From Porphyra umbilicalis (Eukaryota > Rhodophyta > Bangiophyceae > Bangiales > Bangiaceae), in contig KV918765.1 in assembly GCA_002049455.2 (NCBI GenBank), positions 426,309 through 490,308 of the forward strand: a DNA stretch of 64,000 nucleotides, written 5' to 3'. Shown here piece after piece: positions 35,553 to 64,000 of the stretch (position 1 is the stretch's first letter; every line of letters starts with the position of its first letter). A model generated the notes under the pieces. It had not been told where the DNA came from and searched no databases. It saw nothing but the letters and a program-made list of their open reading frames with translations. The position numbers and the translations under genes were made by a program.

Positions 35553-35714
35553 GAAAAAAAGAACAAAGACTTAGATCTACCGCCAAGTTGTCGCTGCTGG
35601 TACAGGTCCCACTGGGGCGCCTACAGTGAGCGCGCCGAGGGTGTCGTCAATAGCCACATTCGCCCGGTGCCATGCGACTGAACAGCGGGCCCACTGGGTC
35701 CCATCGTATGGTTC

Positions 35715-41622: not shown

Positions 41623-41982
41623 TGCTTTTTTTTTTCTTTTTCCCACCCCCATTCTGGGGACGCCCCCCATTTGGTCCTTGACCGCGCCAGCGGATCCCCA
41701 CGGTGAATGATCAGGCGTGTGTGGGCTGCCGTTGGTTGACCGTCGACCACGCTGCGCGGTCGGGCTGATGCCCCGTCCAATCCACCCCATTTGCTGCCTG
41801 TTGGCGCTGGCAGGGCCGCTGTGCAGGATCTGCGCCGGTTTTGGTCAAGACGGGTGGCAGCCGTCGGCTACGCATCACTGGCCGCGCGTCGGTGGTCCCG
41901 TGTCGTGCTCCACCCCCCACGCGACCTGGCTCTCGCGGACACCACCCCCGAGACGGCGTGGCGCCGTGCCGACACCCCCCAG

Positions 41983-42729: not shown

Positions 42730-43641
42730 ACAGGCCGTGTGGGGTACTGACGTTTGTCTGCGTTTGTGGTTTTTGTTCAATAGGGTCCCTTCCGTACAAC
42801 GCAACCACACGCGACGGACGCGAGACGGTCCGCTTTGTCCACCGCGTCCGAGTGGGTGGTGGGGGCATCAGAGGCCCTCAGCGATCCTATCAAAACGGTG
42901 CGTCCCCGCCCGCCACACTCCGTCAATGCTGTCGTCTCGTTGACACCCGCTCCTGTCAGTTCCCCTTCCCCAACGGGGTTGCCGAGCACCGCGCCCCGTG
43001 ACGGCGGCAGGGGTGCCTACTGTGCAGCAGCACTACGAACCGTTTGGCATGCGTCTGATGGGAAAGAAACGGGCCGACGTGGGATGCTGGAAAACACGCA
43101 CACAAATAGCCCCGGCACCGGTACAGTCCATATCCGGTTATGTGCGCTCCAGTGGTCTAGCACCCCGCTATGTATAGATGTGGGAGAGCAGGGAAAAAAG
43201 CATTTTTTCGGTCGCGGCACGCACACTGACGCCCCCCCCAGTTCCTGCGTCCCGGCGACATGAGCGGACATTGGCTGTACACACAGTGTAGGTCGTCCCA
43301 CCACCAGTGTGGTACTGACGCGTGGCGGGTCCTCCGACCAAAAAGCATTGTCAGGGGCGCGCCTCTGACACTGTGTCCCATTTGTGTGCATTCGTGCGCG
43401 CCCCGGGTGGACGTTGGGTCTCAACAGGGGGCACGTGGACGCGCTGAGCGCCGCACACAAAGACCGGCAAGAGCGCCCCCGCGGCCAGTGCTGCAACACG
43501 GTCGTCTTGTGGTGCCACCGCTCACCATGCCCACCCCCGACGCGACCACCGCCGGGCCGTTTCCGCGGGCCCCCCACCACCGTGCGGGCGCCCCAGTCTG
43601 TACCCTCTCCCCCCCCCTCCCCCCCCGCCCTGTGTTCACCA
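42730..43641. other. Spacer between accessory genes
   Basis: No gene is supported. A CATATCCGGTTATGTG segment near 43130 resembles the ATAACCGGATAT segments near 35200 and 47300 and may be a shared promoter motif. Confidence 0.4.
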
Positions 43642-44166
43642 ATGGACAGGCAGGACGTCTGGTTAGGGCGCATCCGCGAGAGTGGCTGTTGGTTTGCCTC
43701 TTCGCAAGAGTTGGACACGGACGATGTTGATACGTTCCTTGTCGAGGGGATCAAGGTCGCTGTGAAAACCCGACCGCTGTGGTGCATCCACCTTGCTCGC
43801 AACGGGTTGACGAAGCTGAGCTGCTTTGGATGGTCGACGGCGTGGGGTGTGCGTGTGCTCGACATCTCGTTCAACCCCTTGCGCCATTGGCCCAGAGATC
43901 CCCTCCGAGCGCTTGCCGCGACGCTGCGCTCCCTCACCGCGACCGACTGTCCCTTTACTACCGCGGACGTGACGGGGCTGGTGCACGTGCGGTGGTTGGA
44001 CCTCGCACGCAACCAGTTGCGCGCACCGCCGGATAGGCTCGCAGGCCTGACCAACCTGGACGTCCTCAATTTGGCCGACAATCAGATCACCGCCCGAGAC
44101 TGGCCGGCGTTTGTGGCCAACATTGTCAATGTCGAGCACAACCCCGTGTGTCGGTCCCCGGGCTAG
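43642..44166 (+). CDS. Leucine-rich repeat protein, N-terminal part
   Basis: The ATG at 43642 opens 174 codons to TAG 44164-44166. Five LRR-like units are visible: CIHLARNGLTKL, VRVLDISFNPLRHWP, LRSLTATDCPFTTAD, VRWLDLARNQLRAPPDRLAG and LDVLNLADNQITARD. The LxxLxLxxNxL pattern is clear in at least three. LRR domains bind proteins, so a partner-recognition role is likely. The frame continues after the TAG into an acidic repeat protein without any gap. Confidence 0.65.
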   Translation: MDRQDVWLGRIRESGCWFASSQELDTDDVDTFLVEGIKVAVKTRPLWCIHLARNGLTKLSCFGWSTAWGVRVLDISFNPLRHWPRDPLRALAATLRSLTATDCPFTTADVTGLVHVRWLDLARNQLRAPPDRLAGLTNLDVLNLADNQITARDWPAFVANIVNVEHNPVCRSPG

Positions 44167-45147
44167 TCGGTTTCCGTGACATCCCGGAATGGCGACGCCG
44201 ACCCGACCGTCGTCGGTCTGTCGCGGGAACTTCCCGCCCCGCCGCGACTCGCAGCCGTCCCCGCCGATGCGAACGGTGGGGCGACGGACGACGAGGGCGC
44301 TGCAAGCCACCCACCCGTGGTGGACGATGGGCAGGAGGAGGACGAGACCGCCGCGGACGGCGGCCGGGAGAAGGAGACGCCCAGCTCTGCAACGCTCGAC
44401 CAGATGGTGGACTGTCCCGCGGACGAGGACGACGACAAGGACGGCAGTACCGACGAGGAAGACAGTACCGACACGGACGGCGGCGACGAGGACGGCAGTG
44501 CCGACACAGACGACGACGACGAGGATGCCAGTGCCGACGCGGACGACGACAAGAAGAAGGGCAGTGGCGACGCGGACGACAAGGAGGGCGGCTGTCGTGA
44601 CGCGGACGGCCAGAAGAAGGGCAGTGGCGACGCGGACGACAAGGAGGGCGGCAGTGGTGACGCGGACGACAAGAAGGGCGGCAGTGGCGACGCGGACGAC
44701 AACGAGGACAGTGAGGGCATCTGCGAGTCAGACCTGGATGTCTCAGACATGGTCGACGCGGACGAGGGAGCCGCCACGGCAAACGATCCCATGCAGGTGG
44801 ACCCCCGTGAGGACGGCGTCGCGACTGGGTGTGGCACGTTCGCCGGCTCTGTCAACGGCGTTGTCGAGGATGGCGGGAAGGGTGGCGACGATCAACATGA
44901 CGGGGTGGGCGTCGATATGGGCGGTGTGGTCGACGGTGGTGACGCCAATAGGGCGGCTGGCTGGGTGGGGGGTGCCATTGTCCCGGCCTGCTGGCGGGTG
45001 GGGCTCATGACGTGGGCTCATAGCCACAGGGGGGTGGCCGCGACCGCAGACGGGCCCCTCTGGGCCCCGTTGTATTCGTTGGGGCGGACGCAGTGCGTCT
45101 GTCGGACAACAGTAAAAAACACACACGCAGATCGACTCGTCTGCTGA
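44167..45147 (+). CDS. Acidic Asp-rich repeat tail, in frame with the LRR part
   Basis: Directly after the TAG the same frame is open for 326 codons, ending in TGA. The centre is a highly acidic repeat array with units such as GSGDADDKEGG and DADDKKGGSGDADD, recurring every 11-20 residues. The ends are less biased. The stretch has no ATG near its beginning and no room for a promoter, so it is best read as the C-terminal part of the LRR protein. Acidic tails of this kind often bind histones or basic proteins; that is inference only. Confidence 0.55.
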   Translation, partial: SVSVTSRNGDADPTVVGLSRELPAPPRLAAVPADANGGATDDEGAASHPPVVDDGQEEDETAADGGREKETPSSATLDQMVDCPADEDDDKDGSTDEEDSTDTDGGDEDGSADTDDDDEDASADADDDKKKGSGDADDKEGGCRDADGQKKGSGDADDKEGGSGDADDKKGGSGDADDNEDSEGICESDLDVSDMVDADEGAATANDPMQVDPREDGVATGCGTFAGSVNGVVEDGGKGGDDQHDGVGVDMGGVVDGGDANRAAGWVGGAIVPACWRVGLMTWAHSHRGVAATADGPLWAPLYSLGRTQCVCRTTVKNTHADRLVC

Positions 45148-45165
45148 AAACAATACATCGGAATA

Positions 45166-45337
45166 TTGCTGTCTTCCCTATTTTGGCCGATGCCGTCGAT
45201 GTCAAGAGGGGCGATCAACTGTGCGAAGCTGCTTCTCAGCCATCCATTCAGCTGAATAAAGTCGTTTGACCAATGGGCAGTTGACCGGGACCCTGTCTTG
45301 ACTTTGACCACATCGGCCAAAATTGGGAAGACAGCAA
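45166..45337. mobile_element. Stowaway/mariner-like MITE, 172 bp, TA target duplication
   Basis: The ends TTGCTGTCTTCCC and GGGAAGACAGCAA are inverted copies, and the similarity continues inward through ATTTTGGCCGATG with one mismatch. Both ends are flanked by TA (45164-45165 and 45338-45339). It has no coding capacity. Confidence 0.7.
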
Positions 45338-45360
45338 TACTGCGATCATACCAAGAAAGT

Positions 45361-45436
45361 CCAAGGATTTGTCGTCCTCCACCGCCGTGGGGATGCTCTC
45401 GGATTATTCGGTGAGAATAGGTGCACGGTCATCTGA
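45361..45436 (+). repeat. Conserved module, copy 5 (degraded)
   Basis: GCTCTCGGATTATTCGGTGA and GCACGGTCATCTG are kept; one arm of the dyad has a substitution. It lies downstream of the LRR/acidic gene. Confidence 0.6.
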
Positions 45437-46126
45437 GAAAAGAACTACACAGAAGGACAAGTGGCCACGCAAGTTGAGCAAACTCAATACATGCAAGTAC
45501 GAGGGACAACACAAGGTGGGCCATTGGACGGCCCCATGTGAGTACGTATTTGGTCTGTTTTGAGGCGGATTGTTCGCGCTCTATGGGCGCTCAGAGGGCC
45601 TTCCAGCGCCCACCCAGCGCCCACAATATTCTGGGCGCTTTGCTGCGCTCTATGCATAGATGTATTGTCATAATGATAAGACTGTCTGCAGCGTCTATGG
45701 GCGCAGCGGCCCTGCCTGCAGCTGCCTCAGCGGTACGGCGGGAAGGGTCCGTCGGGAGGTGGCCATGGCAGCAAAATCCTTCCCATTCCCCCCCCACGAC
45801 TGCAAGACGTTCGTGACAAGGATCTCTACTGGGCGTCGGCGATCGCTACTTGGCCACCGCTGCAGCCGTGCATAGGTGGGTGTGACTCTGCAGCGTGTGC
45901 GGGTTTTTCTTTTCCTTGTGGCCGGGCATTCTAGTCTGGTTGGTTGACCTTGTCACCACCTAGAACATATGCAGCTGTTCTCTTGGTTGTCCTTGACACG
46001 CAGACACCCTGCGGTTGGAGGATGACCGTCCGCAGTACTTTTTTCACAGATGGTCGCTGGTGATGGCGAAACACACTCAAGGTTGCGAGAACAAGGGGTG
46101 GCTGCCTGACCATTTCTGGGTGCTAC

Positions 46127-46262
46127 GACCGTCTTCCCGATGTTGGCCGCTGCATGGCTGTATTTCCAAATTTAGTCAAAGTCAATACGTGGTCTCGGTC
46201 AACTGCCCACAGGTCGAAGGACTTTTGACGGCATGGGCGGGAATTGGGAAGATAGCAATCCA
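46127..46262. mobile_element. Diverged relative of the 172-bp MITE
   Basis: In the opposite orientation this stretch matches the MITE at 45166-45337 in blocks (GTCTTCCC, TTGGCCG, CGGTCAACTGCCCA, GGGAAGA). Its ends are degraded. Confidence 0.45.
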
Positions 46263-47996
46263 TCATCTGGGGGACATCGACGGGGCGATGACGTGCCGAT
46301 GGACAAAAAGTGGAGCTTAACTGGGGGTGGGATACAAATGCGCTTTCTGGCCTTGTGGAACCGTCCTGGGTTTTGAAATCGACCTGTGTGGCGTGTGGGG
46401 GACGGCCGTAATTGGTGGTACGGGTGCACCAGTGGCACAACGCTGGCCAATCATTCGACCCTGAGCGATGGGTCCAACAAGGAGTCACCACAAAACCGTG
46501 CTGATGTGTGTGGGTTTTGACTCACCCCATGACTGTCCACGTGAAGACTTGTCGTTCATATCAAACACAGTCAGGAACAAATTTGTCTGTATTTCTGCTT
46601 GCAAGCACAGTCACTGAAGGATCACGGCGCGCTGGCATCTGTTGCGCACTTGGTGGCTGGGAGGGAACCATACTTTAGGGACGCGGCACACTAGGGCCGC
46701 AGCGACAACGGATATCACCATGATATGAATTGACGCGGCAAAGGGGGTACTTGCCGGCGCCCAGACGGCACGCACGCTCGGCACCCACGCTCAGCGGGCG
46801 GGGGACGCAGCTGAGGACGGGCGCGTGATGACCCACACCTCGAGGACCCGCGACCGGGGGCAACGAACCCGCAGCCGACCACACTGCCTGTGTGTGTCCG
46901 TCACCTACTTCTACCGGCGCCAGGTCGTCGATCGACGCGTGGCCGCCGATCGACGTTTACGTCGTCGATGGGTGCGCGCCGGGGGTGTCGGTGGTGGGAC
47001 CTTACGCGTGCGGCGCGCCAGACATCCGCCCGCACAGCGCTTTGCTTTTATAGGCTTGGGTGACGGTGGGCTACGTTTCAAGATTCAGCCAAACTGCGAT
47101 GATTGTGTCGCTCGCTCAAGTGGTACAGTCAATATCCGCTTACATGGCACCCCTGTGCACTTTGTAGCCCACCCGCTGTTTCAAGAAACATATTCCTCCA
47201 CGCCGGATACTGCGTGTCGTTTGCTGGATTGGGCCAATGAGATATCAGCTATCGCGACCCTCCCAGCTATATGGCAGGGTGCCATATAACAGGGACGCAT
47301 ATAACCGGATATCGACGGTACCCCCTGCGCGTCCCCAATCGGCAGAGTGGTTGCAGCACACGACTGAGCGCGCCTCGTGGGGGCAACCACCGCAGCCTGT
47401 TGGGCTCAAACGGTCACACGCTTCTCCCCAGCCCCCATTCCATGGCGAAACCAGGATGGGGGGCGACACGCCATACGCACCACCGGGTGCTGATCACCCA
47501 CCCCCACCCTCTCCGTTTGCGCATAGCAGACAGTCGTACGGGGCTGTCGTGTTTTGTGTTTCATTGTTGCCGCGCGCGTACAGGTCTGTACGCCTCATGT
47601 AGGCGTGTGAACAGGCGGCTTTCCTTGCACTTCCTGGCGTTTTGTGTCTCCTCCAGTGACGCACCTGGGGGCACGGTCGGCGACGCGGACCGCGTCCCTG
47701 GCGAGGTGCAACCGAGCGCGAGGCCGAGCATCGACCAGTGCTCACCGCGTATGGGGTGCGCGGCCGTCGTGCCGCGTGGGTGGGGGGCAAACAGGGATGT
47801 GCGCCAATTCCCAATGTCCGTGTGGGACACGACTTGTGTGCCACCGAAAAGATGTTTTCACAGAAAACAATCCGACGCCCATGATCCGTCCCGACGCGCT
47901 CTCGAGTGTGCGCGGGGTGTCGGAACGTCATTCTCAACGCCGCTGTAAGCCCTCCTGCTGTAAAAAAGCAAAATTCACGAAACCAGGTATTGACAG

Positions 47997-48080
47997 GGTT
48001 CGAACCCCCGACTCCCGGACGCGACCCGAAGGTCACGCCTAATGAGAGTGGGTGCCTACTCCCCAGTAGGCTACCCATGC
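47997..48080 (-). other. tRNA-like segment with B-box (GGTTCGAAC)
   Basis: The minus strand carries GGGGGTTCGAACCC preceded by a long-variable-arm-like hairpin (GACC-TTCG-GGTC) and a D-arm-like hairpin (GCCTACT-GGGG-AGTAGGC). A seven-pair acceptor stem cannot be formed, so it is at best a tRNA relic or SINE head. Confidence 0.25.
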
Positions 48081-49062
48081 AACTTCCTCGCGGTTTGGTG
48101 ACCGCTGGTGCATTCGACATTTGTACCCGTGCGATTTTGCGTGAAATTTTTGCGATTTCACATTTTTTGTTCTTGCGCTTCTGATGCTTTGATTTGCGTG
48201 GGCTTTGCTTTGATCCCTGATGCTTTGATTTGGTGAGCGTTTTGATTTAGAGTGTGGGCGGGCGCGTGCGCGGGTGAGCTGCTTGGGCTGCGTGGTGGGC
48301 TTGAGTGCTCCGACTTGGACTACTTGAGGAGGGCCCTTGATGGGAAGAGGGGCGCTTTGGAGAGACAACCAACAAAGCACGTTCGCACACATGCACACAA
48401 GCTCAAGCCACTCAACCACTTCACCGTGGTCCCCCATCCCCTATCCCCACAGCGTTTCAACAGGTTATGGGCCCAGAGCCGGAACTGTGAGAAGGGCAAG
48501 GTGTGCCAGACGGCGTCGCGGCGGTCGCGACAAGTGCGAAGAAGACGAGTGCAAGGTGGTTCAAGGANGAAGCCAGTTGCTAAGAATTAGTGTCGGGCGG
48601 ATACACAGAGGGCAGGCACCCAGGCGCCACTTCCTTCTCACGCACACCGGACACTGGGCACACACGCGCAGCGTGGGCGGAGGGGGTCTCCCCAGGAGCA
48701 ACCACCACCGTGCCGCTCCCGCCCTTCATATGGCCTGGCAGCACACACAATCGCCGGCGAGAATCGGCGCGCCGGTCAAATCAGACGTGCAAACAATCAC
48801 AGCCACACACAGACACCCCTTCGCACGCTAGCGGCGCTGCGATCAGCCGGCACGGTCTGGCACGCCAGCACAGCCACAGCCCGTTCCACACACACGACCA
48901 AAGAGGCACGCGGTTGGGCCATTGGTGGCCGACACGGTCAGATGTGCGCGAGGATGTGCGGGCTACCGCATTTTCCACATGACGCCCAGATCCCCGATCA
49001 GAATTCCCCAATGTTGCCGTCCTCACGTCGCCTCGTATTGTACTTGTATTCTGTATTTATAT

Positions 49063-49140
49063 GCCAGATGACCGTGATGTCGTTCTCACCGGATAAAACG
49101 AGAGGCTTTCTGCCCGCGTTGCTTGGTGACAAATACGTGG
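49063..49140 (-). repeat. Conserved module, copy 6
   Basis: This is a close copy of module 3, but the dyad arm is changed (CCGGATAAAACGAG), as it is in copies 7 and 8. Confidence 0.75.
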
Positions 49141-49235
49141 ATTTGATGGTCGTGCCGTGCGTTGTGCAACGCAGAGAACCGCGGCGCACTCTGGTTGGTC
49201 AAACTCCGACTTGTTTTAACCGTCGAGGCAGTGGG

Positions 49236-50203
49236 AACGTGAGGTGGAAACCACAGCCTTCGTGATGTGGTCACAGCCTTCGTCATCTGGCATGACCACA
49301 TCACGAAGGCAAGGCATCAAGAAGGCTGAGGGACCAATAGGATGTGTGTATTCCTGCAGCTTCAGGGTGTTTGGTTCGTATGCATATGGCCCCCCCCCCC
49401 TTCAGGGTGTTTGTTTCGTATGCATATGGCTTCCCCCCCCTTCAGGGTGTTCGTTTCGGGTGCATATGGCCCCCCCGTGCACGCGCCGCTTGCTGTTTGA
49501 CACTTGGTCAGGCCAGTTCGCTGCCAACCCACGGCCACTCCACTCGATCAGGCTCGCCGCATCCTCGGGCCGAAACGCCCGCTGCTGCCGCAGCCCCCAC
49601 CGCCGCCGCCGCCCCCGCGCTGGACGCGGCCCCCGCCACTGGCGCCGTCCCCGCCCCTGATCGTGGCCCCCGCCGCCGCCGCTGCCGCTGCCGCCGCCCC
49701 CGCACCCGCACCCGCACTCACACCCTCTCTGTCGCCACATCCTGACCACTGTATTCGGTAGGATCGCTGACACTGCTCAGTCCAGTGGATAACACGTCTG
49801 TCTGATGACACAGCACAATCCAGTGGAATCGTTGGTTGCGCTTCCCTACCTGCCTACAGCGGCTCTTGCGGCGGCGGGGGCGGCGGCGGCGGGAGGTGGG
49901 GCGGTGGTGGCGTGGTCATGACGGCGGTCACGCTGCACAGGACGTCGGTGAGGCATGTGGGGGGGGTCGTGCGTCGCGGTGTATGGACAGTGGAGCAGGG
50001 GGTCCGTGATCAGGACCTACGAGCTATTCAAAGGTGTCGCCTATGTTGTAGATATGCCCAGATACAGTCCGGAAATGTGTTGAGGAGCGCCACTTGTCAT
50101 ACAGGCACGGCCCCTGATTGGTAGAGGAGCCTTCGTGATGTGGCACTTGCCTTCGGGATCTGGCTGCCAGTTCCCGAAGTCTGTGGTTTCCCTGGTTGTG
50201 GAG
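49236..50203. mobile_element. Insertion with sub-terminal inverted repeats and a strong foldback
   Basis: The sequence interrupts the copy of the ParB-gene upstream repeat. Near the left end lies GGAAACCACAGCCTTCG and near the right end its imperfect inverse. An 18-bp perfect inverted repeat GCCTTCGTGATGTGGTCA (49256-49273 and 49293-49310) makes a strong hairpin. Inside is a three-unit tandem repeat (49360-49477) and a GC-rich simple-sequence stretch. No transposase is seen. Confidence 0.5.
49360..49477 (+). repeat. Three tandem units of about 40 bp
   Basis: Each unit is CTTCAGGGTGTT followed by a TTCGTATGCATATGG-like segment and a run of C. Confidence 0.8.
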
Positions 50204-50898: not shown

Positions 50899-52650
50899 AT
50901 GTCGCACGCCGTGGGCAACCTGGTGCCACGTGTGATTAGCGTCGCGGACCTGTGTTTGCCGACGAGTCTGCGCGGACGGTCGATGACGCGCACATTCGGA
51001 GGCTCAAGGAAGACATCCGCCATGGGACCTTTATCGGCAACGTGTCCCGCATGGTCGTCTTTGTCCTACCAGGGGACCCTCCCCGCTACCGTCCCGTCGA
51101 CGGCTTTCACCGTGGCAGCGCCTTGGCGCAGTCGGTTCGGGAAGGCGTCCTCGAGCCGACGTTCCCGTTCTCCGTCGTCGTAGTCTCAGACGACAAAGGC
51201 CGCCCCCGCCATCTGACCGACAGCGAGTGGGTCGGCTTGTCCATGCAACTGAACGACATTGGCGACAAGCGCGCTGTCGTGACCCTGACGGACACGCTCG
51301 AGAGCGTCAAACTCCTGTTCACGAGTGTGTGGGGCGACGACCACCACCTTCCTACGCCGTTGCCCAGTCGGTTCTGGCAAGCAGGGTGTCGCCGCGCTTT
51401 ACACCAACGGCACCGTTCCGGGGATCCGCAAGCCCGCGTCAAGGGGGCTGCCACGGTCGTCCTTCGCGGTGTGGCCGTTCCTGGACAGTCCACGCGCCTG
51501 GGCGGAGTTCCTCGAGATCAACCACTTTCGGCGCTTTGGTGGTGCCTACCCGCACAAGCGGTACTCCATGAGCATGCTTGGCAAACCGTCTTTGCCGATT
51601 GCCGCTGGCCGACTTGGATCCGGCGCTCGGCTCATCGGCGCTCTCCGACTCGGTGCGCTGTCTCATGCTGAAGACCGCGGAGGCTTGGCTTGATCTACAC
51701 ACTGGCCATGTGGATGAGGCGCGGGCGCGAGATGCGGAAAAGTCGCCCAAACTCTCCGTTCCGGTCGCCTCTGACCTGTTCTCCGCCGTCTCCCAGTACG
51801 TGTGCGGTATGGTCGCGTGTGCCAACGGTCAAGCGGACGTCCTCGACAACCCCATCCTCGATCTACACGACGGTGCGCCCGTCGTTTCGTCGGTCGCGAT
51901 CGTGGACGCGTTTCGCTTCTGTCGCGAACCAAGAATTCGGCGGCTGGACTTGTGTCGTCGTCATGGACTGTGGGCAGCATGGCTGAGTTGTTTGTTGACA
52001 AGGCCACGCGCCTGCGAGCACTCGTTCGCTCGTCACTGGCTGATGGGGGCGCGCAAGTGCCGTGGGGCATTGCAGGTGTCTCTGGACGACCCCGCGCTGT
52101 TGTCGGAACCCTTACCGGCTGAGGACTCGACCGACGGAGCGCGTTCGAGGCAGTCGGCGTCGCCTCTCCCACCGTTTCTGAGGACGACGAACCCAACCAG
52201 TCTGGCGGCGGCATGCTCGCCTACTTTGCAGACTTGAACATGAGCCAAGACTCTGGTGCGTCTGCTGGGGGCCCCAGCGACACAGCTGCGGCGGCCGGTG
52301 GCGCACCTGCGGTGGACACCCCTGGCGCTCCTCCTCGGGGCGGTGAGTCGCCTCGAGCAGACCCCCCTGCGCTGTCTGCGGTCGTCCCGGCGGCGCCGGG
52401 CGGTGCGTCGGCTCCTGCGGACCCGCCTGATGCTCCTGCAGGGCGCAGCGGCGCGCCTGGAGAGGCCCCGCCCGGCGCTCCTGCTCGGGGCGGTGAGTCG
52501 CATCGAGCAGGACCCCCTGCGCCACCTGCGGTCGTCCCGGCGGCGCCGGGCGGTGCGTCGGCTCCTGCGGACCCGCCTGGTGCTCCTGCAGAGCGCAGCG
52601 GCGCGCCTGGAGAGGCCCCGCCCGGTGCTCCTCCTCGGGGCGGTGAGTCG
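50899..52650 (+). pseudogene. Broken copy of the 911-codon ParB-like gene
   Basis: It aligns with 36644-38360 at high identity from the same ATG context. A 1-2 base deletion near residue 20 shifts the frame; the frame containing RYRPVDGFHRGSALAQS (the ParB-type motif) then stays open until about 51350. Further indels follow around 51350-51620 and 51930. The copy ends inside the Pro/Ala/Gly repeat region; the C-terminal third of the intact gene is absent, and unrelated sequence starts at about 52655. The poly-C tract near 50798-50818 upstream is shared with the intact copy. Confidence 0.8.
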
Positions 52651-52655
52651 CCTCC

Positions 52656-53910
52656 AGCATGTGAAGTCGGTGTGGTCAAGTGGGTGCGTTATTTTACTAT
52701 GGCAGAGGTCCTGGGCCGTGTCCAGCCACCTAATGTACCCCAGGCGGCCCCAGGACAGGTCGTCGGGCAGCCCGCTCTCGGAGCACACCCACGTGCCTCA
52801 GTTCTCAGTGCGCGCGGGCCGCGGCGCACCTCCCAGAACGGGGCATGCACCTCCCCACACAAGTCCCCCCCCCCGAGCTCACCCCAGCAGAGAGTGCCCA
52901 CTACGAGACCAACAAATCAAGTACACACAAGTACAAAACATACAACAAGTGCATAGGTAAATACCCAAAACTGAGTCCCAATGCTCAACCGGGTAAGTAT
53001 AGACAAATGGAATTGCTGAGCCATGCTCAACACTCCCCCCAATTACATTGTGACGGTTCCGGAGTCCGGATGCAAGGTAGCCCGGCTTCCGGCTTACAGC
53101 TTGATTTGGCTTCCCGATCGCCGCTTCTCGGGCCCGGTCTGTAGCAGTACAGCCCTCCTCGGGAAGCCATATCAGTTTTGGGCTGTACTGATACAGAACC
53201 CCCCCTCCCCGACTAGGCCGCAAAACGCGATGTGGGCCAAAAAACCGCCCACCGCCAAGTCGACAACCGCCGACTCGGACAGCATCAGAGCACCCGCCAG
53301 CCGACCGCCAGGCCGCCGCAAGCCGCCCAACCGCCGCAAAGTCGACGCAAACCGCCGACTTGTTAGAGACGCATGAAGCTGGGCTGTATCAGTACAGCCC
53401 TCCCCCCGCCACTTAAAACAAAAAAAAACGATGTCCGCCAAGTCCGCCTCGGTCGACGCGGACAGCATCGGAGAAGCCCTTAGCCGACCGCCCGACCGCC
53501 GCAGGCCACCCAGTCAGCGTAAAGGCGACGCAAGCCGCTGCCTTCGTAGCGATGCAAGGGCCTGGAGCTGTATCAGTACAGCCGTAACGGCTACCGCCCA
53601 GCCGAAAATCGAATTGACGCGGTCGTCCAATGTTGATCGGATCGTCCGACGAAACGTTCGGTAGACATCGATTCGACCGGCCGCCCCCGACTCGATCGGC
53701 GAAACGTCGACTTGATCGACGAATTTCGGCACGAATCCGACTCGGGCTGTATCAGTACAGCCCGCCGACAATCGGATCCCGATTCCGAGGAGGGCTGTAC
53801 TGATACAGCCCAGCCCCCGACTTCGCCGTAAACCGCCCAATCGACCCGAAGCCGTTCCGGGCCGCCGACACCGCCACTCCGCCGCCAACCGCCGCCCCCC
53901 CCGAGGGGGT
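52656..53910. other. Spacer with tandem units and six palindromes next to the copia element
   Basis: From about 53130 the sequence is built of loosely repeated units of about 180-200 bp (segments such as GACAGCATC and CCGACCGCC recur). Each carries one 20-bp palindrome. No gene is seen. If the copia element had a 3' LTR, it should lie here. Confidence 0.55.
53136..53811. repeat. Array of six palindromes GGGCTGTA-N4-TACAGCCC
   Basis: Sites are at 53136-53155, 53180-53199, 53381-53400, 53565-53584, 53744-53763 and 53792-53811. Three have perfect 8-bp arms (the one at 53744 has 9), and the others have one or two arm mismatches. The 4-bp centre is TCAG, CTGA or GCAG. The regular symmetry suggests a protein-binding site or a hairpin. 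Confidence 0.8.
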
Positions 53911-56900
53911 TCAGCACTGCGGCGCAGGACGTAGGGCCCGCGTGCCGCTACTCCCCGAAGTGCCCAGATCCGAGCCAACGCCGATGACGCCCCGGAATGT
54001 GGTGAACGCCGGGGCCGGCAGTGGCTTCGTCATGCCATCTGCGGGCATGTCGGCGCTGGGAAGAAAGTAGAAGGCAACCTCCCCACGCGCGACGTAGTCG
54101 CGCACCATATGGTACGCAACGTCTACGTGCTTGGTACGCCCGGTGGCTTCGGGATTGTTGACCAAAGCGAGGCACGCCTGGTTGTCCTCCCCCATGGGCA
54201 CGGCGTCCCCGTCGACGCCCAGCTCCGACAGAAGTTTGCGCAGCCACAGCGCCTCCTTGGTCGCCATAGCGGCGGCGACGTACTCGGCCTCGGCCGTTGA
54301 CGTCGCCACGGTCGACTGGCGCTTGCTCGTCCACGATATCGGCCCGCCATTGAGGGTGAAGACAAAGCCCGTCGTCGACCGACGAGCGTCAATATCGCCT
54401 GCCCAGTCTGCGTCAACGTACCCTTGGAGAGGCTTGTCGTCGCCGTACACGACCCCTAATCGCGTAGCCCCGCGAAGATATCGGAGCACCCCCTTGGCCG
54501 CGCGCATGTGGTCCTCCTCGGGGCATGACATGTAGCGGGAGAGCACGCCCACGGCAAAGGCAATGTCCGGCCTCGTCGTCGTGGAGAGGTACAGCAACGA
54601 GCCAACAATCTCGGCGTACCGGTTGCCCTCGGGCAGTAGATTCTCCCCCGTCTTGCAAAGCTTGGCACCTGACACCATGGGCGTCTTGTTGGGCGCAGAC
54701 TTGTCCATCTGGAAAGCCGCAAGCAGGGAACTGACATGCCCCGGATTGCTCAGGGTGACCACCTTGGCAGCCCGATCTCGCATGGCCTTCATGCCAATGA
54801 AGTCCTTGACCTCACCCATGTCGCGCACGTCGAAAGACGCCGACACCGAGGCCTTGACCATCTGGACCCCTTCGAGGCTTTTTCCAGCCACAATGAGATC
54901 GTCAACGTAGACGAGGATGTAGGCAAGCCCGTGCACAGGGTGGCTCCACGTGTAGAGGCACGGGTCCACCTTGGACCGGACCGCTCCGATGGCATTGAGC
55001 TCTTTGTTAAGCTTGATGCCCCACAATCGTCCCGCCTGTTTGGTCCCATAGAGAGCCAGGTTCAGACGGCGGACATCACCTTCCTCCCCCGGCTCGGCTC
55101 CGACCGGAAGCTTGATGTACATCTCCTTGTCCATCTTTGCGTTGAGGAAGGCCGTCTTCACATCCACGTGGTGAACTTCCTAGTCCTTGGCCGCCGCCAC
55201 CGCGAAGAGCGCGCGTGTCGTGGCCGAGCTCGGCACTGGTGCCCATGTCTCATCAAAGTCGCGCCCCGGCACTTGGTTGAAGCCCTGCGCCACCAGTGGC
55301 GCCTTGTACCGAGTCATGTTGCCCTCAGCATCGTGCTTGATGTCGTACACGTACCGCGTTTTGACAGCCTTACGCTTGTTGCTGCTCCTGGTATTGGACC
55401 AGGTACCAAGCTTCTTGTGTGCGAGGTACTCTTCTTTCTCAGCCGCCTTCCAACGCGGCCAGTCCGATCGCGCACGCGCCTCCTTCGCATTGGCTGGCGC
55501 CTTGGTCAGGTCCCATCCCGACGGATCTCCGCCCTCGGGTCCTTCTGCAGCGTATGCCTTTGGGTTACGCTCCCACCAGGTAACCTTGGGTGCCGGCTTG
55601 CGCTTCGACCGCCGGAGTGCTTGCACCCCGTCAACACCACTCTCTGTGGTGGATCCAGACAGCACGTCGTGTCCATCATGATCCGCCGCGTCCTCGCCGG
55701 CGTCATTGTCATCTCCGTCTTCTGCGTCGAGTCCGGAAGCCTCGTCCGGCTCAACTTCGCTCTCTGACGACTGCTGCGAGGCATACTCGTCCCCGCTTGC
55801 GGCTTCCGCTTCCAGCATGTCCATGGCGCCGTCCTCCTTGTCACCATCCGTCTGACTGGTCAGGAAAGGGGTGAGAGCAGGGCCAGGGACAGAGGTCATC
55901 TTGATGGCTTTGCTTGAGGTCTCCTCCATGAGCACATCTCGGCGCTCAAAGACCTTGTTTGAGCCATCCTCTAGGATGCGGTAGGCCTTGCCACCAACAG
56001 TGTAGCCGACACAACGGCCGACGTCGGTCCTGGGTTCCAGCTTTCGCTGCTGCTGCTTGGGCTTCAGAGCCCATGCCCGGCTCCCCCAGACCCGAAATCC
56101 CTTCACGTCGGGGCGTCTCCCCGTGAGGGCTTCCAGCGGGGTCACATCTTGACCCGCCTTGGGGGATCGGTTGAGCACGTGGATGACGGATGACAAAGCC
56201 TCCGCCCACAGCTCCTCTTCCGCTCCGGCGTCCAGAAGAGCCGCACGGACGCGCTCCATGATGTACCGGTTGGCGCGCTCTGCCTTCCCGTTCTGCTGCG
56301 AAGAGTACGGCGCCGTCTTCTCAGACGTAATGCCTTTGTCTTCATACCAGGCTTGGAGGTCGCGGCTCACGTACTCCTTGGCGCCATCGTTACGAACCCG
56401 CTTCACCTTAAGCTCAGTTAAGGTCTCTAGCTGCTTGATGCGGGCCTTGAGGACATCCGGAACCATGCCCTTGGACTTGATGGGCGTCGCCGTGATGAAC
56501 CCAGTGGAGTCTTCCATCAGAGTCACGAAGTAGACAGAGCCGCCCAGCGACGCCGTCAACGGCCCATCAACGTCCGTGTGAACCAACTTGCACTTGGTGG
56601 TGGTCGTTGTCGAGCGATGATGCAGGGAACGCGCCATCTTTCCGTCGACACAAGGCACGCATACCGTACCAGGAACGCGCTTGGCGTCGGCTACCGTCGA
56701 TGGAATCCCATCGACCATCCCAACCACACGCTTGAGGTTCTCGAAACCCAAGTGGTTGAACCGGCGGTGCCACAGCTCTGCCTCGCCGTCCATGTGCGTG
56801 AAGGCGGCTCTGGCCGATGCCGTGACCGGAGTCACCTTGAGCACGTAGTTCTCCGACTCGTTGACCGAGCCGACGACAGACGCGTTGCTCAAAACTCCGC

Positions 56901-58095
56901 TCGCGAGCACCGCTTCCCCATCACTGAGGATATAGCAGGCGTCGCCAACGAACACCACGGCACCGCCACAGCGGTCGACCGCTCGGACAGACAGAAGGTT
57001 GTCTGTCAGATCCGGCACAAGCATTGCCTCATCGAGGACCATGCGAGCCGTGGTGCTTCCCTTCCCCACGTCCATGGACGCGTATCCGTGCCCCTTGATG
57101 GGCACCTTGTGGCCGTCAGCTAGAGTGACCTTGGCCCCGCTCCCCGTCGTCTTGACGGTGAAACCCGCGTCCTGGGCGGCCATATGGTTGGTCGCACCCG
57201 AGTCCAACACCCAGGTCGAGGACCCGCTGGTGCTTCCGGAAGCGTTGAGCTTCCCGGCCTGGCCTGCCGACGCAGCGTAGGCCAATGCGGCGCGGGGAGG
57301 TGCACCACCTCCACCGCCACCCTCACGACGCCCGCCATTTGGCTTCTTGTTGCCCTTGGCGTCGTCGGCCTTCTTCTTGAGACAGTCGCGCTTCATGTGC
57401 CCCTTCTTGTCGCAGTAGTAGCACACGACCGTGCGCTTGTCCCACGGCTTCTTAGAAGCCTTTGCCGCGAACGCTTGCGACTTGACGCCGGTCGCCGAGG
57501 ACGACCGCCCATGGCTCCCCCGCTGCTCCACAGTGAGCAGCTTGGCGCTCACGTCAGCGAGGTTGCGCTTCCCGTCCATGTTCTCCAGAACGGTCTTGAT
57601 CATGTCATACTCGGCCGGAAGGCCCGACAGGATCTGCAGGACAAGCGTGTTCTCGTCCACCTGATTTCCCAGCATGGAGAGCTCTTGACGGATGCCCTTG
57701 GCGCGCGACGTGTACTTGATGATGTTCTCGTCGCTGCCCTTCTTGAGGTTGCTCAGCTCATGCATGAGCTGCAGCAGGCGTGCATTGTCCCGCGCCTCAA
57801 AGATGTCCTTGAGCGCATCCCACGCCTCCTTGGCCGTACTGACCGCCGTCACCGAATGAAGATGAACCGGCTTGACCGACATCTGGATAGTCGCCAGGGC
57901 CGACTCGTTCATGAGGTCCCACGCCTCAGCTGCAACGTCGCTCTTGGCACCGCTCCCAGACGCGGGGCGGTCCGTCACAACCGCAGCCCAAACCTTCTCC
58001 TTGATCATCTGTGCACGGCAGTACACAGCCCAGACCTTGTAGTCGTCGTCCAGCTGCGCGAAGTGAGGGCCAGCGTAGCGGCCGTACTCCGACAT
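53911..58095 (-). mobile_element. Ty1/copia retrotransposon gag-pol with one TAG stop, no LTRs found
   Basis: The frame from ATG 58095 runs about 1,394 codons to TGA 53911, broken only by TAG at 55182-55180. In order it has: a gag region of the copia UBN2 type; a zinc knuckle CYYCDKKGHMKRDC (about 57384-57425); protease WVLDSGATNH; integrase HHCC (HRRFNHLGFENL then CVPCVDGK) and the QNGKAERANRY part of the catalytic core; reverse transcriptase with DVKTAFLNA and the YVDD box (about 54900); and RNase H with YVDADWAGD and TSTAEAEYVA. This domain order (integrase before reverse transcriptase) defines copia. The TAG sits directly before EVHHVDVKTAF, where relatives usually have Trp. I could not find matching LTRs on the two sides, so the copy may have lost them or sit in a misassembled repeat. 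Confidence 0.9.
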
Positions 58096-58149
58096 GACGA
58101 TGACAACCACGCCAGCAGGCGCGGCACTGACGACGTGGGAGGCTATACN

Positions 58150-58330
58150 CGAGAAACAGCTCCTCCCCAAAGGCGACGTCCGCCGTGGCCACAACCGTCA
58201 ACAGGTCGGGGGCACCATGTCGGACGGGCACTTGAGGGGCCGCAAGCGCAGGTGCACGTTGGGCTTGCGGGAGAGCGTCGAGCCGTCCGCTTGAAAGTTG
58301 ACCTTTCGGCGCCACTAACCGCCCCATAGC
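58150..58330 (-). pseudogene. Possible SET-domain remnant next to the copia gag
   Basis: On the minus strand one frame reads RKPNVHLRLRPLKCP and another, after a shift, LLTVVATADVAFGEELFL followed by an ambiguous codon and YS. The last part matches the C-terminal SET-domain signature (AxxDIxxGEELxxxY). The fragment ends at the ambiguous base 58149, where the copia leader begins. It is short and frameshifted, so the call is tentative. Confidence 0.35.
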
Positions 58331-58522
58331 GCTTGATGTAGCAGCGCCGCAGCCGACAGACGGGACGAGCCAAACTTGGGCGGCGGCGGAGCACCGCGCG
58401 CCGCGCCTTGAGCCGGCACCAAGTGCGCATTGCGGCTAAACGTCTGGTGGGTGATGCGGGCCCGTCCCCTCATCGTGCCATACGGTCTGTGGGGTGGTCT
58501 TGCAACGTTTCAGACGGAGTCC
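58331..58522. other. Short spacer between SET-like remnant and methyltransferase gene end
   Basis: Nothing recognisable is present. The methyltransferase gene ends at TAA 58523. Confidence 0.4.
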
Positions 58523-61500
58523 TTAAAGACGACCCCCCCACATGGACCCAACCTGGTCCCGACGCGCAAGCCGCCGGTGGCTGAAAAAGACGCCCAAGCC
58601 ACCAAAGGGGTCGCCCGACGAGTGACGCGCACCCGACATGCGGTCGGCGTCCGCAGCCCGCACAGTGGCCGTGTCGTCACACTCGAAAACCGCCCGCATC
58701 TGCTGCGGCCAGTCGTGCACCGGCTGGACGAGGAGGTCGTCGAGGCCCTTGACGGTAAAGAAGTCGTTTGGCACAGTGGTGGCCAGGGAGACGAGAAAGT
58801 GGACGATGTGTGTCGGCACCCGGGTGTGTGCCGGCTCGCCGGCTTTCAGGGTCAATGCCGACAACAGCCACTTGGTCGACGACGAGGGCTGAGGGCGACG
58901 CGCCGCGAGGTCGGCGGCCACCCTTTCCACAGCGTCGAGCAGCTGCGGTGTCACCCCACCTGCACCTTGATCAGGGGTTGTCAGGATACGCATTTCACGG
59001 CGAAATAGGATACGGATACACGCCGATGCGGTGTATCTGATTACGGATAAATCGCTTAACTAAGATCCGGATGCGGATATCTGCCTCCGAAACCGGATAC
59101 TTACGTAGATTTCATCCGTATCCGAGTACGATTATCGTATCCGATTATATTCCTACAAGTCCGTCAGGACGCACAATTAGGGCCAAAGACAGACGCCATT
59201 CAGACACTTGTTGAGTGCTAAATGGACGTCAATTATGATGTGATATTCACATTTGATGTGTGCGCCCCAACGGGCGCGGTCCAAGCAGTTCCCCGCCGTT
59301 TTTGTAAACGGTCGTCAGATAGACCGTTCTGAACCTCGTGTCACACTTTGCTGGTATCGCAAGCGGGCCGAGTCGCGTGCTTGAACGGTTTCTTCCGGGT
59401 CGGGCGGGATTGCCGCTTGTCGCTGCAACATGCTGGCACATGAATCTCCCGAAGGTCGGATTGGGAAAAGAGAGGTGGACTGCGTTGTACCGGAATTCTG
59501 TCGGCCCGAGAAGTTTTATAATCTTGTATATCCCTGTATCCTGCCTCTCATATCTGGAATACGGATCTGATATAATCTTGCAGTTTTTGTCGGACAGGAT
59601 AGCTATATCCGCTCCTCTCTTTCTCATAATGCATTTAGAATATGCGTCCCCGGCGCGTATCCGAAGTGGATACGGATATCATGCATGGATATATTCCTCA
59701 GGGATATATCCATGACAACCCCTGACCTTGATTCGCCTTGGCCCAGTCGACAAACGCAAAGTAGGTGCGACGACGCGCGGCCTTGACGACCACGTCGTCG
59801 ACGTCGCAGCCGTAAAACGTGCGTCGCGTCTGCACACACGCGACCGCCGTCGTGCCCGTCCCCATAAACAGGTCGAGGACCGAGTCACCCGGGTGAGAAA
59901 AGCGGGACACTAGCTCCCGCACGCACCCGACCGACTTTTGCTCGGGGCGCGACCACTTGCCGTCCTCGTTGTACACAATCTCCAACGGGCCAGGCGGAGC
60001 GACGTTGGTGATCGCGTTGCAGTGGGCGGGCAGGGGAGACGAGGTTTGGTTGTGATTCTTATAGCTCACCATGCGATGCGTCCCGGCGCCGCCGCCCTTA
60101 CGCGTCGCGTGGATGGCCTTGTCCACCCAATTGGCCAGCGTCGTGCTGGAGCGACCACCCCCACCGCCGTTGGACGACACTGTGACCATGGAGCACGGGT
60201 CGACGCTCCACTCGGGCTCGCTCCGACCCTTCAGCGCCGTCGCCGTCCGTAGGTTGGACAGGATGGCATGCCACTTGGGAAACTGCAAGTCGGAACACTG
60301 GATGATGAGCTGGCCGCCGTGACGCACCATCCCAGTCACGTCGCAAGCCACCGCCAGCATGTCCCGCTCCGACAGCCGGTCATGGGCAGAGTTGGGTTCC
60401 CCGCGCTCCAGCCGTGTGCCGTAGGGCGGGTCCAAGTACGCCAGTTGAATCTTGTTCTTGAGGTTGGCCGTGGGGAACTGCCAAAAGTTGCACGATACCA
60501 TATGGACAGCGCCGCGAGGGCGCCCTCAATGAGACGCACGTCGGCGACGCTGACGGCAGAGAATGGTCGGCCGTCGGCCACGGCATCGAGTATGTCCGAA
60601 GAGGGCGCCCCATCGGCCAACTTGGCGGGCGCCTCGTCGTCCAGCCACAGTTCCCGCAGGGAGGGCACAAGGACGGGCACCACGCCACCAACGAGAGCCG
60701 ACTCGTGGGGGAGAAAGGAGCAGACGCTCACCTTGCCCCTGTCCGTTTGCCGCGACAGCGGCTCGTACGTCGCGGACCACAACTCTGGGGACCCCAACAC
60801 GTCGCTCATGTGCCGCGCGTACTGCGCCGCCGCCTTGCGCAGCAGCCGATCGTCGTCGGGGGAGTTGGTAAAGGTCGCCAGCGCCACGGGGTCGACCACG
60901 TCGGGGTCCTTGGACGTTGGCAGACAATGGAAGAGGCGGTACCGCTGGCACCGCGGGGAGAAGCCATCCGAAGGGTGCAACAAGGGCTTAACTTGCACTC
61001 CTCGGCGCACCACACCAAGTACGGCCAAAACATCGTCATGGCGTCTGCGTAGCCACACTTGGCCGCGACAACGTCCCAGGACCGGTTGACGATCATGGCG
61101 GCGTACGACACGCGCACAGTCCGCACGTCGCGCTCGACAACAGCGCCGGGGGTTTTCGACGCTGCCGCACCGGCCACTGACTTTCCCTTGGCAGACGCCG
61201 ACAGCCGCTTTTGCTTCTTGGCCGACAACGTCTGGCCCGTACCACGCCCCCGGGTGGTACCGTCACCGTCGTCGTCGCCGTCGGGGTGCGCCTTCCCCTC
61301 GCGCACGTCTGCCATGAGCTGCAAAATGAGCCACACGCGCTCGTCCAAGGTGCTCAGGGGGCCGATGACCGGGTCGAGCGGGTCGTCCAACAGCTCCGGC
61401 ACCGCGCCCCCTGCCGCCGACCCCGCGGCGGTGGCAGACGCAGGTGCGCCCGATCACGAGGCACCAAACCGTCGCCTTGATCGTCCTCATCCGCGTCCAT

Positions 61501-62961
61501 GTCCGCGGCCTTGCGCTTGATACCCTTTCCGGTCCCCGGCATCGGCAACAGATCCTAGCTCTGCTTCTTGGCCGCAGCGCGTTGCACCTTGTCGATACCC
61601 GCCTGCCCCTCATCCGGCCGCGTCTGGATGTAGCTGACCATCACCTGCCACCGACGGAGGGCGCCCGCAACGGCGGCCGTGTGTGCTGCACCCTTTTCCG
61701 TCCGTCGAGGCGTCGCGGCGAGTGCGGCAAGGCGGTCCCGCATAGCCATCTCACGACGCCCGCTGCTCACCTTGGGCCACGCAAAGCCGCTCAAGTCCCG
61801 CCACTGCAGGGCCACCGGATATCGACAAACCAACGCGTCAACCCGGACGCGCGGCGTCCGGTCCGGCGGTCGGTCGCGGACGATCACACCCAACCCGCCG
61901 ACGGACGACACGAACCCAGAGGCGGGCACAGGGGTGGCCACCCGCGAGCTGGGACCGCCCCCGGTGGCCGCCGACGCGTCTGTCGGAGCGACCGGCGGCG
62001 CCTGCTGCGCCGGCCCGTCAGCGTCGACCAGCACATCCTGCAGCTGCTCCAAACGGTGGCTCATGAAGAGCAGGAGCTCCCACAAGCGCGTGTCCGACGG
62101 GGGTGCCCCCCGCACTCCGCGCACGGTGCAGGTTCCACGTCACCCAGGCCTTGCACCACATGAGGACGGCGTACCACAAGTAGTGCGCTCCTGACTCAAC
62201 TTGGCGAGCAGAGCCGTGCTTGACGTTGACGTCGGTGCCATGGCGTCACCCTGTCCTGAGTTGCACAATCGACACTTTTGGCCAGAAGGCAGCTCGCGCA
62301 GCGTCGCTCGGGAGCTCTGCGAGTCGCTCGTTCACCACCTCGTCTCGCACGACGACCGCCGCAAGGACCACGTCCATGGCGGCCATGGCCTTGACATTCT
62401 CGGCCACCCACTGCAAACCAATGGCTTCAACGATGCGGCTACCGTCGCGCGGGTTCGCAGCAGACGCTTGGGAGACGGCGTCCTTTGCCAAGAGCATCGG
62501 GAGGCGGTGGAACCGTCGGCAAACGTCCGTTCCTAGCGCCGCGGAGCGCCGCCTCGAAGCGGGCGTGCCCCGACACGAGCACCACGGCGTCCTCCCCCTC
62601 CACCTTGCGGCCAGCGCATGGCGCTTGGGCGTACTCCTTGAGGGAGGTCACGCCCACGTCGACCACGTGCTCGTCGTGTACAGGCCGAATGTCCGTCCAG
62701 TAGCGCACCATGGAGAGGTGCACCCAACAGGTGGCGTTGGGCGACTGCTCTCGCCAGTTGGCAATGGAACACCCTCAACGTCCGTCACCAGCGCCTCGTC
62801 CTGTGCACGGCTGGGCGCACAACCGGAGCCCGAGGGCCGTCGGGCGGCACCGTCGGCGCCCCATGAGGGACCCCCGTCGGCGTAACTGTCGCGGGCGCCA
62901 CCGTCTCGGCGGGTGGCCCGGCCGCCGGGACGCGTGGCGTGGGCATGGCACGCGCGGGCAT
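58523..62961 (-). pseudogene. ParB-like / DNA methyltransferase fusion gene (copy B), frameshifted and interrupted
   Basis: Read from ATG 62961, the pieces follow copy A (31344-33530) in order: the SGHARFEAA ParB-type motif (about 62530-62570), the middle region (62497-62246, 62124-61555), the basic segment, and VSYAAMIVNRSWDVV (about 61100). At least six frameshifts and one CAG-to-TAG change (61558-61556) break it. Unlike copy A it continues: a segment of about 170 residues leads, across a 1-nt frameshift near 60505, into a beta-type DNA methyltransferase (60501-59733) with AYLDPPYG (motif IV) first and VLDLFMGTGTTAVAC (SAM-binding motif I) after it. The last 150 residues (58993-58523) follow in the same frame once the hAT-like insertion and one target duplication are removed. 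ParB-methyltransferase fusions are known from bacteria and phages; here the host is eukaryotic. The natural length would be about 1,250 residues. Confidence 0.8.
58972..59724. mobile_element. hAT-like non-autonomous transposon, 753 bp, 8-bp target duplication
   Basis: The ends are CAGGGGTTGTCA and TGACAACCCCTG, a typical hAT terminus. The element is flanked by ACCTTGAT at 58964-58971 and 59725-59732, a perfect 8-bp duplication as expected of hAT. The interior is AT-rich and built from GGATACGGAT-like repeats, with a further inverted pair TGGATATAT/ATATATCCA at the right end. No transposase is encoded. It interrupts the methyltransferase frame near its C terminus. Confidence 0.88.
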
Positions 62962-64000
62962 AGGGGGGGGGGGGGGGGGGGGGGGCGGCGAACCGTCGAG
63001 CACCACGCCGACGCAAACTTTGCTGCCGCGGCACCGACACCCCAAAAGGCACGCAGTGTGGGGGGTCCCCGCGTGTCTCGGGACCGTGCGGCGAGCTCCG
63101 CCAGCGCAGGGCTCGACGAGGCAACGTATTTATAGTGGAAAACGACGCCCAGACCCAGGGTGGGACGACTCGGCCCGTTTGTGCGCGGAACACAGCCCGA
63201 CGGTGGCTCGAACGCCGCGCGCGGGAGACGACGTGCGGGCGACCCGACAGATACGGGTTGCAACGGCGTCCCCATCCATACAAAAAGTCCACGTAATTGT
63301 CACCAAGCGACGCCGCTGGAACGCTCTCGTTTTATCCGGTGAGAACAGCATCACGGTCATCTGGCAAAACAAGTAGATCAAATTACATTTGGTGAACAAC
63401 GCCTGTACCGTGGAGGGATTCCCACGTGTCTGCCGTGCGCGACAACCCGACGACGGTACGACCGTCCGCACGTGCTTCTGGGGATCGCGCTACGGTCCCC
63501 GCACGTCACTGGTACGGGGTGGTACTCTGTATCTTGACGAGCTGCTTTTGGGGCTGTGACGTACGCAACGCATCATCACTGGGCTGAAAAGTCGACCCGC
63601 ACGGATTGAATGACTCCCAGTGCCGATACGACCAGTTCATACTGGTATTTGTGTCTCTTCCCAGGACAAACACCGCTGACGCGCTGCGGTGCATCAAAGC
63701 GCCTCTCCGCTGCCGCGACGCCTGGACCGTGTGCGCACGCAAATGGACCAAGATCGGACGTCAGTGAGGCCGATTCTCGGCACAATTGCTCTCCCAGTTA
63801 TATAGCAGCGTGCTATTCAACAAAAGGTGCATCCCACGCATTATAACCTCTGGCGGCGACGCATGCTCAGGCCCAGCAAGAGGGACACCAACGCCCCCGA
63901 TGCCGAATGTCCGAAAAAGAACCACCAACTCTCATGCGTTCAGTCCATGCGCGCCGAGGCAAATTTTGCACTGCATGTTGGAGCGTTTGTCATGCGTGCA
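62962..64000. other. Upstream region of ParB-like copy B
   Basis: It contains a G homopolymer of about 23 bp (62963-62985), the TATA box at 63134-63127 (minus), module copy 8 and the conserved stretch matching 33950-34786. No gene is seen. Confidence 0.6.
63288..63365 (+). repeat. Conserved 77-bp module, copy 8
   Basis: It sits where copy 1 sits relative to copy A. The left dyad arm is changed (CTCGTTTTATCCGG), as in copies 6 and 7. Confidence 0.75.

Follow-up and report, generated by a model that had tools for sequence, protein, structure and literature searches.

Algal transposons that carry ParB and methyltransferase genes have already been described. The main text on the Sola1 element of Ectocarpus reports such genes and cites green and red algae as well (Dinatale et al. 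2025, PMC12477816). Fusions of ParB-CTPase and N6_N4 methyltransferase domains are frequent in phages, and Srx is the commonest eukaryotic form, according to the available text of PMC12704722. Here, we analyse a stretch of 64,000 nucleotides from the red alga Porphyra umbilicalis (assembly GCA_002049455.2, contig KV918765.1, positions 426,309 to 490,308, forward strand; hereafter the window). It holds what appear to be two decayed copies, A and B, of a gene that a family of large, multi-gene mobile elements carries as an accessory. When intact, the protein would have about 1400-1500 residues: a ParB-like region at the N-terminus, then a conserved middle, a methyltransferase and, at the C-terminus, a SET-like part. 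It may mark the DNA of its own element. An original prediction, drawn from the letters of the window, had presented the locus as the strongest candidate for an undescribed system; this no longer fits, since ParB plus methyltransferase genes on algal transposons are already published (PMC12477816).

As in the Sola1 protein, a ParB-like region and an N6/N4 methyltransferase are joined in one long protein of what appears to be a giant eukaryotic mobile element, and a self-marking role has been proposed there as it is here. The Ectocarpus protein, as presented in the main text, has 1104 residues and two named domains, whereas the Porphyra protein would be longer by a SET-like part; the term "SET domain" does not occur in that main text. 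The Porphyra genes further differ from what the text reports for Sola1 in forming two subfamilies, in having AAA+ neighbours and in the repeats linked to each type (PMC12477816). The phage and prophage ParB-CTPase/N6_N4_Mtase fusions share with the Porphyra gene the presence of both domain kinds in one protein and a phage-type methyltransferase. Unlike those fusions, as the available text describes them, the present case has a eukaryotic host, a long middle, a SET-like part and a ParB fold that is putative (PMC12704722). Retrotransposons of dinoflagellates and charophytes also carry DNA methyltransferases, but these are C5-cytosine enzymes, as far as the available text goes (PMC5890265). A bacterial-type enzyme in a eukaryote is also found in bdelloid rotifers, where N4-methylcytosine (4mC) is an epigenetic mark and the enzyme is of bacterial origin according to the title of the paper (PMC8885841).

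The kind of gene is already known, and the SET-like part and the type-specific repeats are its variant features. In primates, SETMAR combines the SET domain of a histone methyltransferase with a mariner transposase and has no DNA methyltransferase. It resembles the arrangement proposed here in that a histone methyltransferase domain is fused to a transposon protein; of the two, only the Porphyra gene has a DNA methyltransferase. To our knowledge, the rotifer N4-methylcytosine enzyme is not carried by a mobile element. Neither the SET fusion and the type-linked repeats nor the two-subfamily arrangement and the AAA+ neighbours were found in the literature searched; Petroll et al. 2025 (red algae) and Iyer et al. 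2011 lie outside its coverage and could describe them.

Single-frame copies and two subfamilies

The genome assembly that was searched comprises 83.8 Mb in 665 contigs, designated by C-numbers; the window corresponds to C5:426309-490308. A genome-wide search with PF01555 (23 candidates, all scored) gave 21 places on 19 contigs, which agrees with the original prediction of a repeated locus. Sorting by motif and alignment yielded 9 loci of type 1, the kind found in the window, and 12 of type 2. The two types are 34-36% identical, as measured with three aligned type-2 sequences.

Both parts named in the original prediction, the ParB-like motif and the methyltransferase, are indeed found together in intact genes. 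In L016, one open frame of 1495 residues contains GHARFEA at 245, DPPYG at 960, DLFMGTGT at 1146 and GEELFLDY at 1464. The ParB-like motif and the methyltransferase also lie within a single frame in L009 (1463 residues) and L013 (1419 residues). Such a frame is present in 3 of the 21 PF01555 loci, and all four motifs share one in a single locus. Chance is an unlikely explanation because two subfamilies at 34-36% identity retain open frames of more than 1400 codons. Comparison of L016 with the decayed copy L022 gave dN/dS values of 0.33 for the ParB-like region, 0.56 for the middle, 0.51 for the methyltransferase and 0.47 for the SET-like part. As judged from these ratios, amino-acid change in the gene has evidently been selected against.

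With the type-1 ParB-like region as query, 27 candidates gave 26 genome matches, among which a few loci are represented by more than one piece. A third ParB-like form, 53% identical, was found in this search on C61. The stretch adjoining it (L076 2212-4501) is about 95% identical to window positions 12169-13977.

Methyltransferase, ParB-like and SET-like parts

The methyltransferase is the most clearly recognised part. PF01555 matches with 51.1 bits (P0001) and 48.0 bits (P0002), above the cut-off of 26.7, through the final quarter of the model. In the PHROGs library, which contains phage families only, phrog_67 matches residues 952-1181 of the type-1 protein P0001 (E 3.4e-17, 63.8 bits) and residues 895-1118 of type 2 (E 1.3e-20, 75.1 bits). 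Matches among PDB sequences are DpnA, MboIIA, RsrI and CcrM; NCBIfam models of CcrM and related enzymes also match, with scores below their cut-offs. In type 1, DPPYG followed by DLFMGTGT is kept in 7 of 9 loci. We take these to be motif IV, (D/N/S)PP(Y/F/W), and motif I, DxFxGxGT, an order that would define the beta class. The prediction of a beta-order N6-adenine/N4-cytosine methyltransferase domain is solid and upholds the earlier assignment. Relatives of this domain were found by tblastn among phages and plasmids. A ParB fusion was sought in 16 stretches around these relatives (three with Pfam, thirteen by gene length and annotation) and none was seen. A pattern-based search of viral contigs for a relative of the full protein was likewise negative.

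The N-terminal region retains a motif resembling ParB box II, GHARFEA or GHHRLLA, in most copies where it is covered. A three-sequence alignment was compared by HHalign with a profile of eight plasmid ParB proteins (eight of the ten plasmid stretches fetched gave one). GHxRxxA falls on box II with a score of 19.8, against a maximum of 15.9 for 200 shuffled controls; the alignment spans only 36 columns and has a probability of 4.6%. Neither NCBIfam nor PHROGs searches recovered ParB, and the type-2 ParB-like region gave only chance-level tblastn matches against phages and plasmids. A search with a plasmid ParB returned nothing related from viral contigs and, from genome contigs, a single relative at 97% identity. 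The motif and the weak profile signal leave the ParB fold putative.

At the C-terminus, the motifs GxGVF, xNH and GEELxxDYG follow one another in both types and in most copies. The original prediction recognised two parts, ParB-like and methyltransferase, and overlooked this one, which a shuffle test and a Pfam match at E 0.07 point to. A profile comparison with 12 of the 89 SET matches of the genome gave a score of 32.2 against a maximum of 18.0 for 200 shuffles, with a probability of 53% (77% for type 1 alone). GLGVF, INH and GEELFLDYG are collinear with SET in type 1, with block scores of 1.8, -1.4 and 7.7 bits, of which only the last is good. A search of PDB sequences with this part returned nothing meaningful. 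A SET fold is suggested by these comparisons, less firmly than the methyltransferase fold by its own.

SET genes are expanded in this genome: scoring of 100 candidates gave at least 89 matches to PF00856 (E up to 1), many of which lie in open frames of more than 1000 residues. These may possibly be carried by other mobile elements.

A probable multi-gene element with a shared terminus

The gene lies within much larger units of near-identical DNA. The type-2 copy of C88 is 98.9% identical to that of C60 over 9741 columns and 99.3% identical to that of C25 over 9603 columns. Genes for AAA+ ATPases adjoin the methyltransferase gene (PF00004, E 5.8e-29 and 1.1e-36). Copy A of the window and the copies of C25 and C88 cease to be homologous at one common point, GAAGCTTCGCTAA with a T after it, and the three flanks differ. 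Exact occurrences of this terminus number 111 genome-wide; T follows in 75 cases, A in 21, C in 14 and G in 1.

At 12 of the 21 loci (C25b, C60, C88, C272, C82, C265, C94, C48, C31, C8, C33 and C113), a terminus of matching orientation is found 11-28 kb downstream of the PF01555 match. No linked terminus accompanies C25a, C5:486084, C5:499865, C363, C7, C22, C62, C445 and C40; for C25a and C5:486084 the next terminus, 43 and 36 kb away, is part of a neighbouring copy. On C88, exact copies of the array core described below start at 69074 and the terminus is at position 108648; with the left array counted as part of it, the unit would measure 39.6 kb or more. The corresponding distance on C25, from 366742 to 400806, is 34 kb. 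Many dispersed copies and a shared terminus are shown at the level of sequence, and they indicate that the gene is part of a large multi-gene mobile element family.

At C293:12474-12808, two element termini face in opposite orientations with one base between them. The type-1 gene of C113 is flanked by direct repeats of about 490 bp, 86-91% alike (166943-167446 and 173686-174177; L028, L032). A candidate left end at C5:494093 coincides with the border of a stretch of N and was discarded.

No terminal inverted repeat was found when the terminal 14-mer of copy A was compared with window positions 35001-50000; a single match in the other orientation has 3 mismatches. Helitrons end in CTRR at their 3' side and insert before T. 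The terminus ends in CTAA and is followed by T in most of its exact copies. Folding of the terminal 68 nucleotides revealed no strong hairpin by the end. The Helitron model PF14214 gave 28 matches (29 candidates, all scored) and the KDZ model PF18758 also gave 28 (34 candidates, all scored), none of them on the 19 locus contigs. For Plavaka (PF18759), 123 of 169 candidates were scored, and the one closest to any of the 21 loci, on C82, is about 24 kb away, beyond the 20-kb limit applied.

Repeats linked to each type

The two types are accompanied by largely separate repeats. Type 1 has a repeat of about 140-170 bp containing a CGGAT-T-ATCCG dyad; its sites include the 5' end of the gene and the region upstream of a companion gene. 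In the window, the dyad has 8 relaxed matches, and repeat comparison defined four repeat units. One lies at the 5' end of copy A (33871-34040, plus strand; CGGAT-T-ATCCGGTGAGAACAG) and another at the 5' end of copy B (63285-63455, plus strand), with the dyad altered to CGTTTTATCCG. The companion gene has an inverted unit upstream (36190-36300, minus strand) and a further one downstream (40314-40483, plus strand). The 21-nucleotide dyad core has 13 exact genome copies, all on contigs with a type-1 locus (C5 6, C33 3, C8 2, C113 1, C265 1). Relaxed dyads occur in 7 of 9 type-1 loci, namely window copy B and 6 of the 8 fetched stretches (not L022 and L027). The 12 type-2 stretches, one interrupted by a run of 2959 N, have none.

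Around the type-2 gene of C88, tandem arrays with units of 220 bp on the left and 224 bp on the right are found in opposite orientations and share a common core. Ten of the 12 type-2 stretches contain this core, GAGTTGACTCT; the 8 type-1 gene stretches that were fetched lack it. A longer version has 215 exact copies; the 100 that were listed are all on C7, C22, C25, C31, C48, C60 and C88, each of which has a type-2 locus. Copies of the core span 15-17 kb next to the gene on C88 and C25. The type-2 core was not found in the 5' repeats of type 1.

Copies A and B and their neighbours in the window

Copy B is a decayed type-1 gene on the minus strand (58145-63331, 5' limit approximate), delimited by blastn to L009 and L016 and by its frame blocks. 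The motifs on which the original prediction was built are present in it. The single chain that the prediction assumed is not: the gene is broken into at least 6 blocks, with the frame changing between blocks. The ParB-like region (62249-62774) is split over two frames and has SGHARFEAA at 62547-62573. The methyltransferase frame (59701-60525) carries DPPYG at 60418-60432 and DLFMGTGTT at 59848-59874; PF01555 matches it with E 8.6e-15 and 55.7 bits, over profile positions 163-219 of 221. The SET-like remnant (58145-58993) retains GLGVF at 58586-58600 and, just before the junction with copia, GEELFL at 58151-58168; INHY is not retained. Homology of copy B to L009 and L016 ends at 58145, where its 3' end is cut against copia frames (53911-58194, minus strand), assigned from their translation without a family search.

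Copy A is a 785-residue open frame on the minus strand (31347-33701) that, by homology to copy B and the intact loci, covers the ParB-like region and the middle of the type-1 gene. Its homology extends over 31419-34356, with 93% identity to copy B. The gene is missing from about residue 818 onwards, including the methyltransferase and SET-like parts. At 31419, copy A abuts the remnant of a first AAA+ ATPase gene, to which it is fused (30628-31419, minus strand; homologous to L013 and L030, the L013 version being the one with the PF00004 match at E 5.8e-29). A sequence match identified the remnant of the right-hand 224-bp tandem array at 30156-30576, with one GAGTTGACTCT core. A second AAA+ ATPase gene is an 833-residue frame at 27131-29629 on the minus strand (DNA 95% identical to L035, whose frame matches PF00004 with E 1.1e-36). 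The terminal segment of the element (23840-24126, minus strand) lies 7.5 kb from the broken end of copy A. A 699-bp repeat occurs at 8531-9229 and 24210-24908, 15.7 kb apart and 98% identical, and belongs to a segment adjoining the terminus.

The companion gene (36644-39379, plus strand, 911 residues) bears the motif HGFHRGSA, and a broken second copy recognised by homology (50940-52659, plus strand) has DGFHRGSA. It holds 150-bp coding tandem repeats, and its region is also kept next to the C113 gene and elsewhere on C5. Read by eye as a second ParB, it scored 11.8 against a shuffle maximum of 18.5 and remains a candidate only. It has no Pfam match and, in tblastn against plasmids, only chance-level matches. 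A frame that looks Ulp1-like by eye lies in a region (40588-44580) that recurs on C5 at L029:4952-5875 (C5:510851-511774) and has no Pfam match at E 0.01.

Possible functions of the gene

We propose that the gene is an accessory of the mobile element and that its product marks the DNA, and perhaps nearby histones, of its own element. The ParB-like region or the middle would target the protein to the repeats of its element, the dyad for type 1 and the 220-224-bp arrays for type 2. At these repeats, the protein would methylate element DNA and perhaps nearby histones. The marks would keep the element transcribed, conceal it from silencing or tag it for transposition. Repeat binding, catalysis and benefit to the element are inferred from the arrangement of domains and repeats. 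A stronger version, in which one protein writes both base and histone marks on its own element, with a ParB-type domain seated on type-specific repeats in the manner of ParB loading at parS, is doubtful.

Several observations weigh against this proposal. PF02195 matches neither the whole proteins at E up to 1 nor the excised regions at E up to 10, and a genome search with it gave 0 candidates; ParB is also absent among the PDB sequence matches. The ParB domain of the original prediction is therefore retained as a motif with a profile score above all 200 shuffles, and not as a recognised family member. The SET part scores 14.0 and 14.1 bits with PF00856, at E 0.07 in each type independently, under the cut-off of 22.4. 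Its profile alignment covers the last 20 columns only, and the probability for the type-2 part alone is 13%. The string NHSC..N, usual in SET domains, is absent. When the whole genome was searched for SET with E values up to 1 and 100 candidates were scored, none of the 21 loci was among the matches listed. Among the copies themselves, 20 of 21 have no single frame bearing all four motifs. The block of L022 that was compared with L016, at 72-81% identity depending on the part, contains five stops, and dN/dS between the types is 0.50-0.77 with dS saturated. The element is delimited at one end only, and no transposase was identified for it with the Helitron, KDZ and Plavaka models. In type 2, DIPW replaces DPPY in 9 of the 11 copies that cover motif IV (the other two are further decayed, and DPPY is found in none) and AGSFS replaces the GTGT motif in 12 of 12; this type may therefore be inactive or changed. 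One array core stands beside type-1 copy A in the window, so the separation of repeats by type is incomplete. Finally, linkage alone accounts for the type-linked repeats, which are no demonstration of binding. Because of this last point, we keep the probability of the proposal at about one half.

The gene may instead be a passenger, a captured phage-type methyltransferase that gives general protection, for instance from a nuclease encoded by the host or by a competing element, and leaves its own repeats unmarked. The phage and plasmid relatives of the methyltransferase fit this idea, the profile relatives coming from the phage-only library. So does the excess of exact termini (111) over gene loci (21), which means that most terminus-bearing elements lack the gene. 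We nevertheless consider it rather unlikely: conservation extends jointly over the ParB-like, middle and SET-like parts (dN/dS below 0.6 between L016 and L022), and each type is accompanied by its own repeats.

The type-2 replacements of DPPY and GTGT also raise the question of whether the protein acts without catalysis, as a transcription or assembly factor that binds the element and keeps a left-over methyltransferase fold, at least in type 2. Type 1, with DPPYG and DLFMGTGT retained in most loci, argues against such a regulator, as does a phrog_67 score that is higher for type 2 than for type 1. We regard it as quite unlikely.

It is very unlikely that no transposon is involved and that the loci form a segmentally duplicated or centromere-associated gene cluster with ordinary satellites as arrays. 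Long runs of array cores by the gene on C88 and C25 and the closeness of large-unit copies on C5 would suit such a cluster, but the units on three contigs share one exact end point beyond which their flanks differ, and the 111 exact termini have a biased next base. Bacterial or phage contamination of the assembly, which the bacterial-type methyltransferase could evoke, can be dismissed, as the 21 loci are spread over 19 contigs and interleaved with copia-type frames (identified from translation) and AAA+ genes, in a genome with at least 123 Plavaka and 28 Helitron matches.

Transposons are usually the targets of epigenetic marking, not its authors. If the stronger version of the self-marking proposal is true, the Porphyra element would possess a chromatin identity system of its own, self-contained within the mobile DNA. 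It would also provide a eukaryotic setting for ParB-type DNA clamps other than sulfiredoxin. As the two subfamilies of a single genome differ in their repeats, it can be tested directly whether each enzyme marks its own kin alone.

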